DNA from: Luteimonas sp. FCS-9
GTDB taxonomy: Bacteria > Pseudomonadota > Gammaproteobacteria > Xanthomonadales > Xanthomonadaceae
Assembly (NCBI RefSeq): GCF_001014645.1
Contig: NZ_LASZ01000003.1
Location: forward strand, 62,001 to 126,000
Reading direction: 5' to 3'
Length of the DNA stretch: 64,000 bases
A program made the translations under genes and the position numbers. Under the pieces are notes generated by a model that was not told where the DNA came from, ran no database searches, and was given only the letters and a program-made list of their open reading frames with translations. Below, piece by piece: positions 41,611 to 49,432 of the stretch; the stretch's first letter is position 1; each line of letters begins with the position of its first letter.

Positions 41611-43929
41611 ATGGCACAGACCCGCATTCGCCGGTACGACAGCCCCGCAGGCGGCTGGGGCTCGGTGCGTTCGCTGCTCCGACACGGCGTCGGGCCGGAC
41701 GTGCCCACGGTTGAGGGCGCGCGGCAGCTGGCCCGCCAGAACAAGGTCGACGGCTTTGCCTGCGTCAGCTGCTCCTGGGCCAAGCCCGCCGAGCCGCATG
41801 CGTTCGAGTTCTGCGAGAACGGCGCGAAGGCGACCATGTGGGAGCTCGACGAGGAACGCGCCGACGCCGCTTTTTTCGAGCGCCACACGCTGAGCGAATT
41901 GCGGCAGTGGGCCGATTGCGATCTCGAATCCCAGGGCCGGCTGGTCGAACCGATGCGCTACGACGCGGAGCGCGACCGCTACGTCCCGGTGTCGTGGGAG
42001 GAGGCCTTCGCGACGATCGGGCGCGAGCTCCGCGCGCTGGAGCGCGAGAGCGTGGTGTTCTACGCATCGGGGCGCGCCTCGCTCGAGACCTCGTACATGT
42101 ACGGCCTGCTGGCGCGGGTCTACGGCAACAACAACCTGCCCGACAGTTCCAACATGTGCCACGAGAGCACGTCGGTCGGCCTGCCGCGCAGCATCGGCGT
42201 GCCGGTGGGCACGGTGCTGCTGGAGGACTTCGCGCAGTGCGACTGCATCCTGTCGTTCGGCCAGAACGTCGGCGTCAACAGCCCGCGCATGCTGCACCCC
42301 CTGCAGGATGCGAGCCGCCGCGGCGCGCAGATCATCACGTTCAACCCGCTCTACGAGCGCGGATGGGAACGGTTCACCAATCCGCAGGAGCCGGTCGCGA
42401 TGGCGACCGGGCAGTCGACGCGGATCAGCAACGCCTATTTCCAGGTGCGCGCGGGCAGCGACCTGTCGGTGCTGCAGGGCATCGCCAAGGCGGTGCTCGC
42501 GCTCGACGACGCCGCACTCGCGCAGGGCCGCGAGCGCGTGCTGGACGTGGACTTCATCGCGCAGCACACGCAGGGCTTCGAGGCCTTCGCCGACTCGCTG
42601 CGGGCGAGCGCATGGGCGGACCTGGAACGCGAGTCCGGGCTGGCGCGCGCCGACATGGAGGCGGCCGCAGGCGTCTATGCGCGGGCCAAGGCCGCGATCC
42701 TGGTCTACGGCATGGGCCTGACCCAGCACCGGCACGGCGTCGACAACGTCCGCATGCTGTGCAACCTGGCGCTGATGCGCGGCAACATCGGCCGGCCCGG
42801 CGCCGGCATCTGCCCGGTCCGCGGGCACTCGAACGTGCAGGGCCAGCGGACCGTCGGCATCTCGGAGAAGCCCGAGCTGGTACCGCTGGACCGGCTGGAG
42901 GCGCAGTACGACTTCGTCGCGCCGAGGGCGAAGGGGCGCGACACGGTGTCGACCGTCGAGGGCATCCTCGACGGTTCGGTGCGCGCGTTCATCGGCCTCG
43001 GCGGCAATTTCGCGCGCGCCGCGCCCGAGACCGGGCCGCTGGAGGCGCGTTGGGGTGACATGGCGCTCACGGTGCAGGTCGCGACCAAGCTCAACCGCAG
43101 CCACCTGCTGTGCGGCCGCACGGCGCTGCTGTTGCCGTGCCTGGGGCGTTTGGAGGAGGACGTCCAGGCGACCGGCTCGCAGCGCGTGACGATCGAGGAC
43201 AGCACGACATGCATCCATGCTTCGCACGGCACCAGCCGTCCGGCCAGTCCACAGCTGCGCTCGGAACCGGCGATCGTCGCGGGCATCGCGCTGGCGACGG
43301 TCCCCGGCGACGCGGACGTGCCGTGGCAGGCCTGGGTGGACGACTACGCGAGGGTCCGCGACGCGATCGAGGCGACGTACCCCGAGCAGTTCCGCGACTT
43401 CAACGCCCGGCTGCACACGCCGGGCGGGTTCCCGCGTCCGGTCGCGGCGCGCGAGCGGCGCTGGGAGACCGAGAGCGGCAAGGCCGAGTTCCACGTGCCC
43501 GACGTGCTGTCGGCGACCGGCTTCGAGGACCGCCCGGGACGCTATCGGCTGCTGACGATCCGCAGCAACGACCAGTTCAACACCACCGTCTACGGCTACC
43601 GCGACCGTTTCCGCGGTATCGAGGGCACGCGCCGCGTCGTGCTGATGAACGCCGACGACATCCAGGCGCTCGGCATCGCGGCGGGCGAGGAGATCGCGCT
43701 GGCCACCGACGTCGACGACGGCGTGCGGCGCGAGGTGGGCGGGCTGCGCGTGGTGCCGTACCTGATCCCGGCCGGTTGCATCGCCGCCTACTATCCCGAG
43801 TGCAATCCGCTGATTCCCGTCGCTCACCACGCGATCGACAGTCATGTTCCGGCTGCGAAGTCCGTGCCGGTGCGCATCGTGCGCGGCGCCACCGACGCGC
43901 CGGTGCCCGCGGGCCCGGCGCCGGAGTGA
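41611..43929 (+). CDS. FdhF/YdeP family molybdopterin-dependent oxidoreductase
   Basis: The 772-residue protein is a large cytosolic molybdopterin oxidoreductase of the YdeP type. It has an N-terminal CVSCSW and CENG, SSNMCHESTSVGL around the likely molybdenum-ligating Cys, and GNIGRPGAGICPVRGHSNVQG. A C-terminal molydopterin-dinucleotide-binding domain carries RSNDQFNTTVYGYRDRF. YdeP is linked to acid resistance in E. coli, but its substrate is unknown. There is no Sec codon; the active-site residue is Cys. The ATG at 41611 is the first of the frame. No FdhD-like gene is adjacent. Confidence 0.9.
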   Translation: MAQTRIRRYDSPAGGWGSVRSLLRHGVGPDVPTVEGARQLARQNKVDGFACVSCSWAKPAEPHAFEFCENGAKATMWELDEERADAAFFERHTLSELRQWADCDLESQGRLVEPMRYDAERDRYVPVSWEEAFATIGRELRALERESVVFYASGRASLETSYMYGLLARVYGNNNLPDSSNMCHESTSVGLPRSIGVPVGTVLLEDFAQCDCILSFGQNVGVNSPRMLHPLQDASRRGAQIITFNPLYERGWERFTNPQEPVAMATGQSTRISNAYFQVRAGSDLSVLQGIAKAVLALDDAALAQGRERVLDVDFIAQHTQGFEAFADSLRASAWADLERESGLARADMEAAAGVYARAKAAILVYGMGLTQHRHGVDNVRMLCNLALMRGNIGRPGAGICPVRGHSNVQGQRTVGISEKPELVPLDRLEAQYDFVAPRAKGRDTVSTVEGILDGSVRAFIGLGGNFARAAPETGPLEARWGDMALTVQVATKLNRSHLLCGRTALLLPCLGRLEEDVQATGSQRVTIEDSTTCIHASHGTSRPASPQLRSEPAIVAGIALATVPGDADVPWQAWVDDYARVRDAIEATYPEQFRDFNARLHTPGGFPRPVAARERRWETESGKAEFHVPDVLSATGFEDRPGRYRLLTIRSNDQFNTTVYGYRDRFRGIEGTRRVVLMNADDIQALGIAAGEEIALATDVDDGVRREVGGLRVVPYLIPAGCIAAYYPECNPLIPVAHHAIDSHVPAAKSVPVRIVRGATDAPVPAGPAPE

Positions 43930-43981: not shown

Positions 43982-45052
43982 TCAGAGCATCGCAAGCTCG
44001 GCGTTGCCGAGCGTGCGGCCGTAGTGTCGTCGCAGGCGCAGCTTGCGCTCCAGGTCGTCGAGAATCGCCCCGCTGAAGTCCAGCCCGGTCAGTTCCTCGA
44101 CCATGTTGATGCCGCCGGGCGTGTCGACGTTCACCTCCATCAACTTGTCGCCGACGATGTCCAGACCGACGAAGTACATGCCGTCGCGGATCAGCTTGGG
44201 CGCGACAAGTTCGGCCAGCCGCAGCGCATCGGCATCGGGTACCGCCATCTCGTATTTGCCGCCCGCGCTGATGTTGCTGCGCGCGTCACCGCTGTCGTTG
44301 TACCGGCGGATGCAGGCGTAGGTCCCGTCGACCTCCAGCGGCCGGCCGTTGAGCATCAGCAGCCGCAGGTCGCCGTTCTTCGCGCCGGGCAGGTATTCCT
44401 GCGCGATTGCGTAGCCGTCGCGGGTGACCGCATCGATCATCTGGTTGAGGTTGCCGCCGCTGTCCTCGTCGACGACGAACACGCCCTGGCCGCCCGAGCC
44501 CTGCAGCGGCTTGATGACGCCGCGGCCGTCGTGGGCGGCGATGAAGGCCTTGATCTCGTCGGCGTCGCGGCTGATGCAGGTCACCGGGCGCACGTCCTCG
44601 GGGAAATGCTGGAAGTAGGTCTTGTTCGAGGCATCGGTCAGGTGCGTGGGGTCGTTGACGACGAGCACGTCGTGCAGCGCCACCAGCTGCGCGAACAGCA
44701 GCGCGCTGCCCGGCGCCCACGGCCGCTCGACCAGTTCCTCGGCCGGGTCACTGCGCAGCATCAGCACGTCCAGGTCCTGCACCGAGATCCGCTCGGTCTG
44801 ACGTTCGGGCCCCTGGATGTCGTCCAGAAGCGCGCGATCGTCCTCGTAGCGTTCCAGGCGCGGGATGCGCGCGCAGGCGCGGATCGTGCCGCCGGCGTCG
44901 TAGGTGAAGTCCCCCAGGCCGATCAGCGCGACGCGGTGGCCGCGGTGAACCGCCTGCCGGGCGAGGCGGATGGTCGTGTAGTTGTCCTGTTCGGTGGCGA
45001 CGTCGTTGACGACGAAGCCCAGGCGCATCGGGGAGTGGTCGGTCGTGCTCAT
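43982..45052 (-). CDS. GshB-like ATP-grasp ligase
   Basis: The 356-residue protein resembles prokaryotic glutathione synthetase: an N-terminal Rossmann-like half (MRLGFVVNDVATEQDNYTT), SDPAEELVERPW, the ATP-grasp Lys loop VIKPLQGSGGQGVF and the metal-binding FVGLDIVGDKLMEVNVDTPGG. Such enzymes join a carboxylate to an amine with ATP. Its operon partners are not glutathione genes, so a different peptide bond is more likely. Its ATG overlaps the stop of the upstream carboxypeptidase-like gene (45049-45052), and no gshA is nearby. The product is unknown. Confidence 0.85.
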   Translation of the reverse strand: MSTTDHSPMRLGFVVNDVATEQDNYTTIRLARQAVHRGHRVALIGLGDFTYDAGGTIRACARIPRLERYEDDRALLDDIQGPERQTERISVQDLDVLMLRSDPAEELVERPWAPGSALLFAQLVALHDVLVVNDPTHLTDASNKTYFQHFPEDVRPVTCISRDADEIKAFIAAHDGRGVIKPLQGSGGQGVFVVDEDSGGNLNQMIDAVTRDGYAIAQEYLPGAKNGDLRLLMLNGRPLEVDGTYACIRRYNDSGDARSNISAGGKYEMAVPDADALRLAELVAPKLIRDGMYFVGLDIVGDKLMEVNVDTPGGINMVEELTGLDFSGAILDDLERKLRLRRHYGRTLGNAELAML

Positions 45053-46269
45053 GCGGTGGCTTCCGGCGGGCGGTGGATCTGGTGGAGGTGTTCGACGGGC
45101 GTGCGTCGGCACGCGTCGAGGCGGGCGGGGAAGTCGTCCCCGGCGGTGTAGCGGGGCAGCAGTGCCGGCGGCACGACCCAGCCGTCGTCGACAAGCGACT
45201 CGAGCAGGTCGAGCTGCGACAGCGCGAACTTGCCCAGGAACAGCGCATCGAATTCGCCGCCGGCGGCGAGGTAGGCCAGCAGGTCGCGGACGCCGCGCAG
45301 ATACACCGCGTCTTTGGTCAGGCCGCCGCCGCGGCGGGCGCGCAGCGCGACGTCGAACGCATCGTCGGTCGGCAGGCCGTGTCCGGCGTGCAGGCGCTCG
45401 AAGATCGCCGGCAGGCCCGCGCCGTCGGCGGCCATCGCCGCCGCCACGACGCGGGCCGCGAGCACGCGCAGGCGCTCGCCGGGCAGGAAGCCGGCCAGGT
45501 ATTCGGCCAGCACGCCCAGGCCCTCCTGGGTGGGGTCGTACTGCGCCAGGCCGACCTGCAGCTGGCGCAGCGCCTGCTGCTGGCCGTTGTGGCGCGTGAC
45601 CACGTGCGTGCCGATCTCGTGCTGGATCAGCGGGTCCACGCGCGCGCGCGGCAGCCGGATGTTGCCGTCGATGTAGAAGGTGCCGTGGGAGACCATCAGC
45701 ATCGAACTGATGTCGGTGTCGACGACGACGTCGATGTGGAAGCCCGGCGCCTGCGCGCGGTACCAGTCGATCTCGGCCTCGACCGCGGCGCGGACCTCGT
45801 CGATGCCCGCGTCGGCCGCCAGCGGTTCGCTGACCGGCACGTCATCGAGGATGCGGCCGGCGACGTCGAGCAACTCGGGTTCGACGCCGCCGAACAGCGC
45901 GATGCTGGCGTCCACGAAGCCCGGCCGGTCGCGTTCGCGGACCAGATCGATCATCCGGCGCAGCTCGAGCTGCTTCTCGGCCAGCAGCGCCTGCAGCGCC
46001 GGCGGCTCGACCTGCGTCAGCGGAAGCGCGTCGAGCGTGCGGCGGGCCGCGTCGAGGTCGGTGTCCAGGTCGATGTAGCGTAGCTGTGGTTCTGACTTAC
46101 GGCCCGCGGCGTCGAATTCGCTCCACAACGCCTCGCCGTCGAGCGGCGAGAGGGCGAGCAGCCAGTCGAGCTGCGCGTCCAGGCGCGCCAGCGTCTCGTC
46201 GATGTGCGCCGCGACCGGGGGCAGGCTGCGCGCCTGCGGGCGCACGGGCGCCGAAGCGTCCGCACTCAC
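45049..46269 (-). CDS. DUF1704 (QEGLA motif) zinc metallopeptidase, MATCAP-like
   Basis: The 406-residue protein has the zinc motif HEIGTH at 217-222 (HExxxH) and DPTQEGLGVLAEY at ~245-257, whose Glu is the likely third ligand. This family is annotated as flavohemoglobin expression-modulating QEGLA protein. A human DUF1704 member, MATCAP, is a tyrosine carboxypeptidase acting on tubulin tails, so carboxypeptidase activity is likely here too. GTG at 46269 overlaps the upstream stop (GTGA), and the stop overlaps the next ATG, so all three genes are coupled. The apparent 661-residue frame upstream is a shadow of the amidohydrolase gene. Confidence 0.85.
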   Translation of the reverse strand: MSADASAPVRPQARSLPPVAAHIDETLARLDAQLDWLLALSPLDGEALWSEFDAAGRKSEPQLRYIDLDTDLDAARRTLDALPLTQVEPPALQALLAEKQLELRRMIDLVRERDRPGFVDASIALFGGVEPELLDVAGRILDDVPVSEPLAADAGIDEVRAAVEAEIDWYRAQAPGFHIDVVVDTDISSMLMVSHGTFYIDGNIRLPRARVDPLIQHEIGTHVVTRHNGQQQALRQLQVGLAQYDPTQEGLGVLAEYLAGFLPGERLRVLAARVVAAAMAADGAGLPAIFERLHAGHGLPTDDAFDVALRARRGGGLTKDAVYLRGVRDLLAYLAAGGEFDALFLGKFALSQLDLLESLVDDGWVVPPALLPRYTAGDDFPARLDACRRTPVEHLHQIHRPPEATA

Positions 46270-47132
46270 GCCAGGAACTCCGGCCGGACCGCCTCCACCG
46301 CGTGCTGCAGGCCGTCGCGCAGCGCATAGAGCGCCGGGATGTCGACCTGCCCGCTCCATTCGTCCATGAAGATCTTCTTGTACTCGGGCGAGATCGTGCA
46401 CACGCGATCGCCCCAGTGCGCGTAGACCCATTCGGGGAAATGCCCGCCGGTCGGGAAGCGGACGTTGCAGCGCACATCGGGCAGCACGCCGCGGACGGGA
46501 TGCCGGCGCAGCACGTTGGCAAAGCGCTTCGCGGTTCCGCCCCAGCGCGCGGCGTCGAGCGTGGTCACGCCGAGCTCGATGTCGGGATTGTCGTCCTGCC
46601 CGGCAGGCGCCGCCTCGGCACCGTCGCGACGATGGTTGTAGCTGTGGATGTCGATCAGCAGCGCGCAGCCCCAGCGCGCGACGGTGCGGTCGATCAGTTC
46701 GCCGATCATCGCGTAGAAGCGGTCGTACATCGCCAGCGACGCGTCGCGCTCGGCCTCGGTCAGCGGCGACGCCCAGACCTGCAGGCCCCAGGCGGCCTCG
46801 GGCGTGGCATAGATCGCCTGGTCGCGCGGCCGGTTGAGGTCGACCTCGAACCGCGAGGTCCGTACGCGCAGGCGGACGTCGCCGACCTGGCCGAGCAGAC
46901 TGGTGAGCGGGTCCTCCTCGCGCCAGCGCGTGTCTTCGTCGAGTGCCACGCGGTCGCGCAGCGACGACCGCAGCAGGTGGCCGTCGTGGATCGCAGTGGC
47001 GATCACCGGGCCGTCGGCGGCCACGAGGTCCCACGCATCCTCGCGCAGGCGCAGGGCAGGCGGGGTGGCGGGGGTGAGAAAGGTTTCGGGGTGGGGGCGG
47101 CGTGGATCGGGGTTGACTGGCATGTTGGCCAT
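46266..47132 (-). CDS. N-formylglutamate amidohydrolase family protein
   Basis: The 288-residue protein is a member of the FGase zinc amidohydrolase family, with IHDGH (N-terminal), RFEVDLNR, LIDIHSYNHRR and a C-terminal EYKKIFMDEW. Family members remove N-formyl groups or act as carboxylate hydrolases on small acylated amino acids. No histidine-degradation genes are near, which argues against a role in formylglutamate turnover. It leads the three-gene operon and overlaps the DUF1704 gene by four bases. The ATG at 47132 (or 47123) lacks a clear ribosome binding site. Confidence 0.83.
   Translation of the reverse strand: MANMPVNPDPRRPHPETFLTPATPPALRLREDAWDLVAADGPVIATAIHDGHLLRSSLRDRVALDEDTRWREEDPLTSLLGQVGDVRLRVRTSRFEVDLNRPRDQAIYATPEAAWGLQVWASPLTEAERDASLAMYDRFYAMIGELIDRTVARWGCALLIDIHSYNHRRDGAEAAPAGQDDNPDIELGVTTLDAARWGGTAKRFANVLRRHPVRGVLPDVRCNVRFPTGGHFPEWVYAHWGDRVCTISPEYKKIFMDEWSGQVDIPALYALRDGLQHAVEAVRPEFLA

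Positions 47133-47275: not shown

Positions 47276-49432
<2,157 letters not shown>

Follow-up and report, generated by a model that had tools for sequence, protein, structure and literature searches.

The locus studied here raises the question of whether three overlapping genes form one functional unit and, if so, what this unit would act on. The genes lie within a 64,000-nucleotide stretch of Luteimonas sp. FCS-9 (contig NZ_LASZ01000003.1, positions 62,001 to 126,000), hereafter called the window, and the 3.9-Mb source genome is G000 in our comparison set, in which genomes carry G numbers and loci carry L numbers. The genes span 43982-47132 on the minus strand and encode, in order of transcription, an amidohydrolase of the N-formylglutamate amidohydrolase (FGase) fold, a DUF1704/MATCAP-type carboxypeptidase and a GshB-like ATP-grasp ligase. 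We tentatively favor, at somewhat less than even confidence, the reading that these three genes constitute one peptide-editing module, in which the state of a tail is set by adding residues versus trimming them. A single functional unit of one carboxylate-amine ligase and two amide hydrolases had been proposed in the initial annotation, and this proposal is borne out by the conserved linkage described below.

The three genes and their products

The operon comprises the following features, all on the minus strand of the window.

46266..47132, minus strand: FGase-fold zinc amidohydrolase, first gene of the operon, 288 amino acids (PF05013, 76 bits, cut-off 28.9)
46830..46841, minus strand: DLNR, a motif of the FGase fold at residues 98-101 (D98, N100 and R101 in 32/32 stand-alone members)
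46266..46269, minus strand: GTGA overlap of 4 bases between the amidohydrolase stop and the carboxypeptidase start, read in the sequence
45049..46269, minus strand: putative DUF1704/MATCAP-type metallocarboxypeptidase, 406 amino acids, a short form that lacks the FGase-like domain at the N-terminus (PF08014, 251 bits, cut-off 27)
45604..45621, minus strand: HEIGTH, a HExxxH zinc motif, residues 217-222 (H217, E218 and H222 invariant in 32/32 and 22/22)
45517..45528, minus strand: QEGL, in which E249 is the putative third zinc ligand (Q248, E249 and G250 invariant in 32/32 and 22/22)
45049..45052, minus strand: ATGA overlap of 4 bases between the carboxypeptidase stop and the ligase start, read in the sequence
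43982..45052, minus strand: ATP-grasp carboxylate-amine ligase of family NF009110 (PRK12458), derived from GshB, 356 amino acids (GSH-S_ATP, PF02955, 157 bits, cut-off 23)

The four-base overlaps that had been described between the three genes were found at both junctions. For the carboxypeptidase, the AlphaFold2 (AF2) model has a predicted local distance difference test score (pLDDT) of 87.5, and superposition on human MATCAP (7z5g) gave a Z score of 22.6 with a root-mean-square deviation of 3.2 over 291 aligned residues, the next-best fold family being DUF885 (3iuk, Z score of 15.9). The HExxxH motif and the QEG glutamate, which had been likened to those of human MATCAP, are invariant in all 54 aligned proteins, consisting of 32 window-type and 22 canonical DUF1704 sequences. 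This alignment leaves out L021 because its frame is broken, and its window-type set includes L070 and L080, which are adjoined by neither a ligase nor an FGase. E249 would be the third zinc ligand. Since the zinc-site residues do not vary among the 54 proteins, the objection that the ligands might not be conserved fails. Against the TIGR02421 (QEGLA) model the window protein scores 270.7 bits, under the cut-off of 338.65, and the cut-off is passed by relatives from Sinorhizobium meliloti (350.8), G243 (406.3) and Photobacterium sp. DA100 (459.9). Based on the model and the zinc-site residues, the window protein is probably a C-terminal carboxypeptidase with an intact zinc site. Enzymes of the TMCP/MATCAP group contain HExxxH and work on the tails of tubulin (PMC10499314).

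The ligase has the GshB family fold (PF02955/PF02951), as had been claimed, and its closest solved structural relative is GshB. In an alignment of 47 ligase and 22 GshB rows it retains many positions that are invariant in GshB, presumably including those that bind ATP, Mg and the acyl group. It differs from GshB in several respects. The window ligase belongs to NF009110, a family that carries the name 'glutathione synthetase', with 409.3 bits, only just above the cut-off of 408, and misses both GshB equivalog cut-offs (TIGR01380, 180.8 bits, cut-off 299; NF003573, 201.9 bits, cut-off 272), while a true GshB elsewhere in the same genome reaches 428 bits against the cut-off of 299. Most ligase rows contain RPWA and DGxxA inserts (gapped in 5/47), position 313 is G in 47/47 ligases and T in 22/22 GshB proteins, and the ligase is tied to MATCAP. 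A tree built from 77 sequences groups all 22 GshB proteins in a single split (support 0.993). Judging from its sequence, the ligase is distinct from glutathione synthetase. Similarity to RimK-type ligases was also detectable (TIGR00768, 56 bits, below the cut-off of 143.4; PDB 5zct and 4iwx). These are ATP-grasp enzymes that act on a protein C-terminus, adding glutamate to ribosomal protein S6, but the window ligase, as a member of NF009110, is nearer to GshB and its partner genes are different.

The amidohydrolase had been described as an N-formylglutamate-amidohydrolase-like zinc enzyme. The fold stood up to examination (PF05013, 76 bits) and identity with HutG did not, as the protein scores 19.1 bits against the HutG model TIGR02017 (cut-off 278.75), whereas the true HutG found elsewhere in the genome scores 353 bits. 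Its AF2 model is weak (mean pLDDT of 62), and we used solely the match of this model to FGase structures, which were its best PDB matches (2q7s, E 1.4e-7; 2odf, E 6.4e-4). The window protein and the genome's own HutG have in common the fold and the core residues H49, DLNR, H163 and E250. In contrast, W34, W115, W120, Y165, N166, K252 and K253 are invariant in 32/32 stand-alone members and absent from the one HutG compared. As far as homology can tell, 'FGase' is the name of the fold of this protein and not of its activity.

Linkage and domain fusion across genomes

Sampling covered Pseudomonadota and plasmid records, together with 14 control genomes in which PF08014 had no match. All three genes are present in 19/19 Luteimonas/Lysobacter loci, which were collected with the MATCAP query, and the ATGA junction between MATCAP and the ligase is kept in the 18/18 intact loci, the MATCAP frame being broken in L021. 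Even sampling of 299 Pseudomonadota genomes yielded 10 ligases above the NF009110 cut-off, from 8 genomes, with scores of 409-488 bits; the next-best match had 241. Nine of the ten adjoin MATCAP, and the tenth begins at base 48 of its contig. The remaining ligase samples were searched at E <= 1e-95 only. Among 240 genomes of the class of G035, both ligases (377 and 404 bits, under the NF009110 cut-off) adjoin MATCAP, and among 150 Vibrionaceae genomes 53 of the 54 ligases do so, the 54th having a MATCAP gene 53 kb off on the other strand; the family of G243 was assigned to Vibrionaceae from its relatives L121 and L122. In the window's own family, 27 genomes gave a ligase match, 8 of which exceed the NF009110 cut-off, and linkage to MATCAP was seen in 10/10 ligase rows checked out of 29, five by hidden Markov model (HMM; L205-L209) and five by coordinates. 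The full trio also occurs on Sinorhizobium meliloti pSymB and on plasmids of Shinella, Mesorhizobium and Aminobacter.

The ligase and its MATCAP type thus co-occur in three samples, so that the objection of rare co-occurrence fails for these two, and chance neighborhood was rejected on this ground. Canonical-type DUF1704 genes do stand alone. Around 22 canonical DUF1704 loci, no FGase was detected by HMM, and only L061 has a nearby ATP-grasp gene, which is divergent and on the other strand. Of the PF08014 matches in the 299-genome sample, 26/35 had no above-cut-off ligase alongside and 9/35 had one. Two of the six genomes with a PF08014 match in the 240-genome sample also hold the ligase, and 53 of 66 Vibrionaceae MATCAP matches are beside a ligase. 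Since MATCAP genes often occur without the ligase and the ligase seldom occurs without MATCAP, the ligase seems to depend on a nearby MATCAP far more than the reverse. Two individual DUF1704 genes were also observed. A second, canonical gene without ligase or FGase neighbors is located in the window's own genome (L068:5674-7065, G000:C21), and in Luteimonas sp. 4-12 (L021:5665-7154) the MATCAP gene is split across several frames, which reflects either a pseudogene or an assembly error.

The genes were found in three architectures. In Luteimonas and Lysobacter (architecture a), the FGase, a short MATCAP and the ligase are separate proteins. In architecture b, which was found in rhizobia, G006, G037, G093, G113 and the window-family loci L205-L209 (partial), MATCAP carries at its N-terminus a domain of ~250 residues that aligns to FGase with an hhalign probability of 90 and E values of 1.8e-6 and 1.7e-6. 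In this domain the DxHS histidine motif is not kept and the HDGH region is poorly aligned, and most architecture b loci additionally carry an independent FGase gene. In Vibrionaceae (architecture c), FGase and MATCAP are one protein adjoining the ligase. Of the paired Vibrionaceae MATCAP frames, 52/53 are 660-701 amino acids long and one has 441. The presence of both domains in one open reading frame (ORF) was confirmed for L073 by Pfam and for L121, L122, L145, L180 and L194 by HMM, and for the other Vibrionaceae the fusion rests on frame length. The core residues are retained in all four aligned FGase domains of fusions that adjoin a ligase, with D in place of N223 in one of them. In two fusions without a ligase alongside, H163 is replaced by Y (L121:7104-9134, Vibrio sp. 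HDW18) and the N-terminal half of the FGase is unaligned (L194:1489-3525, G693), respectively. Based on the fusion of FGase with MATCAP and the decay of FGase where the ligase is gone, we suggest that the three activities belong together.

Proposed peptide editing and alternative explanations

The peptide-editing reading rests on linkage, gene overlaps, the hydrolase fusion, the separate origin of the enzymes and their catalytic residues, from which we infer a shared substrate and opposed activities. As its fold and conserved residues suggest, the ATP-grasp ligase would activate a carboxylate as an acyl phosphate, like GshB, and join it to an amine, by which a peptide or an acidic C-terminal tail would grow by one residue. 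The MATCAP-type enzyme, as predicted from its fold and intact zinc site, would take the C-terminal residue off the same kind of tail. In the least certain step, the FGase-fold enzyme, which is physically coupled to MATCAP, may hydrolyze a related amide bond. The state of the tail would then be the balance of addition and trimming.

In Vibrionaceae, a candidate for such a tail lies next to the ligase. A DUF413 (MaoP-like) gene is located directly upstream of the ligase in 54/54 ligase-bearing genomes (49 read in sequence and five by coordinates), and in Vibrio sp. HDW18 the DUF413 gene is annotated maoP. MaoP of E. coli, a DUF413 member, is presented as a chromosome-organizing protein in the title of PMC5023128.

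Upstream of the ligase in L145-L174, L250-L267, L073 and L122: DUF413 protein whose tail is acidic and, in one genus, has Y, I or F as its last residue

DUF413 tails are acidic in general and the terminal residue alone differs. The tail ends in Y, I or F in 42/54 near-module rows versus 1/38 unlinked rows, the 38 being a selection from a longer list, and the sole unlinked row with such an end comes from a ligase-bearing genome. Among the 54 near-module rows, L122 is identical to L148, L145 recurs in L247, L247 also contributes a further copy downstream, and L121 and L245 have no neighboring ligase; L268 gave no match. The result on the tails comes from a single genus, g345, in which one locus is the same as in Photobacterium sp. 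DA100, and the rows are, coming from one genus, not independent. In this genus 35 of the 37 distinct tails end in [LIMV][DEN][YIF] and two end in E or D, and the entropy is 0.71-1.32 bits at positions -1 to -4 versus 1.35-3.13 bits at positions -5 to -20. In G589, the operon copy of DUF413 ends in D and the unlinked copy in F. By analogy, the g345 tail ends may be seen as recalling alpha-tubulin. It is conceivable, but rather improbable, that Photobacterium-like Vibrionaceae possess a counterpart of tubulin tyrosination, in which the ligase would add and the FGase-MATCAP fusion would remove the end residue of the acidic DUF413 tail -D[LIM]D[YIF]. Just as doubtfully, this might switch the stability or the DNA-organizing role of DUF413 with salinity, and the same enzymes would serve other tails in Luteimonas, rhizobia and further lineages.

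A response to salinity has been published for Photobacterium damselae. According to PMC10308900, the gene A0J47_RS17020 ('GshB') is up 38.4-fold and A0J47_RS17025 (QEGLA) up 27.5-fold at 1% NaCl, A0J47_RS17020 is among the genes most induced by low salt, and the authors discuss it as glutathione synthetase. Because the two locus numbers are adjacent and match the Photobacterium gene order (L122), A0J47_RS17020 is likely the NF009110 ligase and not glutathione synthetase. Owing to the misleading names of the module genes, this transcriptome was probably read as glutathione biology.

Several observations weigh against the peptide-editing module or against parts of it. The FGase-fold enzyme is superfluous for a simple add-and-trim cycle. 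The Pfam FGase model gave no detection on the long-MATCAP N-terminal domain, single-domain scores of this N-terminus against FGase were weak (E 0.0005 to 0.6), and no FGase was found near L077, a long MATCAP-ligase pair. The linkage has exceptions. In Vibrionaceae 13/66 MATCAP matches are not beside a ligase, four of them at least 629 amino acids long, and Vibrio sp. HDW18 has a MATCAP fusion without an adjacent ligase. Ensifer sp. PDNC004 carries an extra, unlinked NF009110-type ligase on one plasmid (L125) and the full trio on another (L126), and in L074:5158-8119 (G093) a long MATCAP adjoins an AstE/AspA-type gene, and neither a ligase nor an FGase was detected in the vicinity. Across 33 loci from Luteimonas, Lysobacter, alphaproteobacteria and genomes of other classes, the most widely shared ORF other than the three module genes, an ABC-transporter ATPase, had homologues in six loci across lineages at most, and none of these loci has DUF413 next to the trio. 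The DUF413 tails of the five Vibrio-like (g20) operons and of G581 end in D or N, which argues against a plain tyrosine model. Finally, two Vibrionaceae ligases pass one GshB cut-off (NF003573, 280.7 and 291.7 bits, cut-off 272), although both fail TIGR01380 (248.5 and 244.4 bits, cut-off 299).

A small-molecule pathway is nearly as likely as the editing of a peptide tail. In such a pathway the ligase would make a peptide-like metabolite, such as an osmolyte, a thiol or a siderophore precursor, the hydrolases would unblock or recycle it, and no protein would be modified. GshB, the closest solved relative, is a small-molecule ligase, small N-acyl amino acids are the substrates of FGase-type enzymes, and no protein partner is common across lineages. 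An osmolyte would fit the marked salt response of the genes in P. damselae that probably belong to the module (PMC10308900). On the other side, no amino-acid-modifying gene or transporter is common to the clusters beyond scattered ABC ATPases (at most 6 of 33 loci), and the extra gene in 54/54 ligase-bearing Vibrionaceae genomes encodes a small tailed protein, not an enzyme. In addition, the targets on which human MATCAP homologues work are protein tails (PMC10499314). Salvage or degradation, in which the hydrolases would break imported or turned-over peptides (e.g. gamma-glutamyl or cell-wall peptides) and the ligase would rebuild a usable one, seems unlikely. Two amide hydrolases and one ligase would suit recycling, and an S46 dipeptidyl peptidase is a neighbor in 10/11 Luteimonas-side loci, but this peptidase is absent from L013-L020 and is not annotated in the rhizobial clusters shown. 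The least probable explanation, and a very improbable one, is redundant glutathione and histidine metabolism, which is how public records annotate the genes and to which the NF003573 scores in Vibrionaceae would lend some weight. The genome has a true GshB (428 bits) and a true HutG (353 bits) elsewhere, the window genes score 181 and 19 bits on the GshB and HutG models, GshB forms a separate clade, and the link with MATCAP would be left unexplained. Glutathione or histidine metabolism was therefore rejected based on the model scores, the paralogues and the tree, in agreement with the earlier statement that the locus is unrelated to either.

Known systems and neighboring genes

The arrangement resembles the tubulin tyrosination cycle, in which an ATP-grasp ligase, TTL, stands opposite a carboxypeptidase of the DUF1704 fold with HExxxH. 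Here, in contrast, there is no tubulin, the ligase is derived from GshB, the genes are in one operon, and a hydrolase of the FGase fold is added. To our knowledge, a ligase/MATCAP cycle has so far been known on tubulin only. Iyer, Abhiman, Burroughs and Aravind (2009) are said to have predicted amidoligase-peptidase systems, which the present locus resembles in combining an ATP-grasp ligase with unrelated peptidases. Likewise, in G093, G173 and G113 the pair or the trio lies beside a set of Zn-protease, transglutaminase-7TM and ATPgrasp_ST genes, as in the predicted amidoligase systems.

In genomes of another class, the ligase is followed by Zn_protease, inactive transglutaminase-7TM and ATPgrasp_ST genes (L076, L079, L081 and partly L090), which were named by Pfam in L076 and by similarity in the others. 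This extra amidoligase set and the pairing with an AstE/AspA-type gene fit a world of ligase-hydrolase pairs.

Among the matches listed in PMC literature, we found no description of the trio, subscription papers being mostly outside the scope of this search. Under misleading names, the module occurs in Gammaproteobacteria, in rhizobia and in other Pseudomonadota. If it is true that the enzymes edit protein tails, bacteria would own a genetically simple ligase/MATCAP cycle, and this would provide a bacterial partner context for the recently characterized human carboxypeptidase family. Members of the human family were characterized in 2022 (7z5g) and 2023 (PMC10499314).

A phage origin was rejected, as megablast (near mode only) gave no match of the operon among 50,697 phage records. 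On the window, the operon is flanked by a molybdopterin oxidoreductase of the FdhF/YdeP family (41611-43929), which is present in 9/11 Luteimonas-side loci, and by the S46 dipeptidyl peptidase (47276-49432), present in 10/11. Other flanking genes of these 11 loci are a CRP-type regulator, found in all 11, and RluA, found in 10. With all loci reaching ~6 kb each way, none of the four occurs in the eight loci L013-L020, and the flanking genes were therefore rejected as functional partners and read as local synteny.

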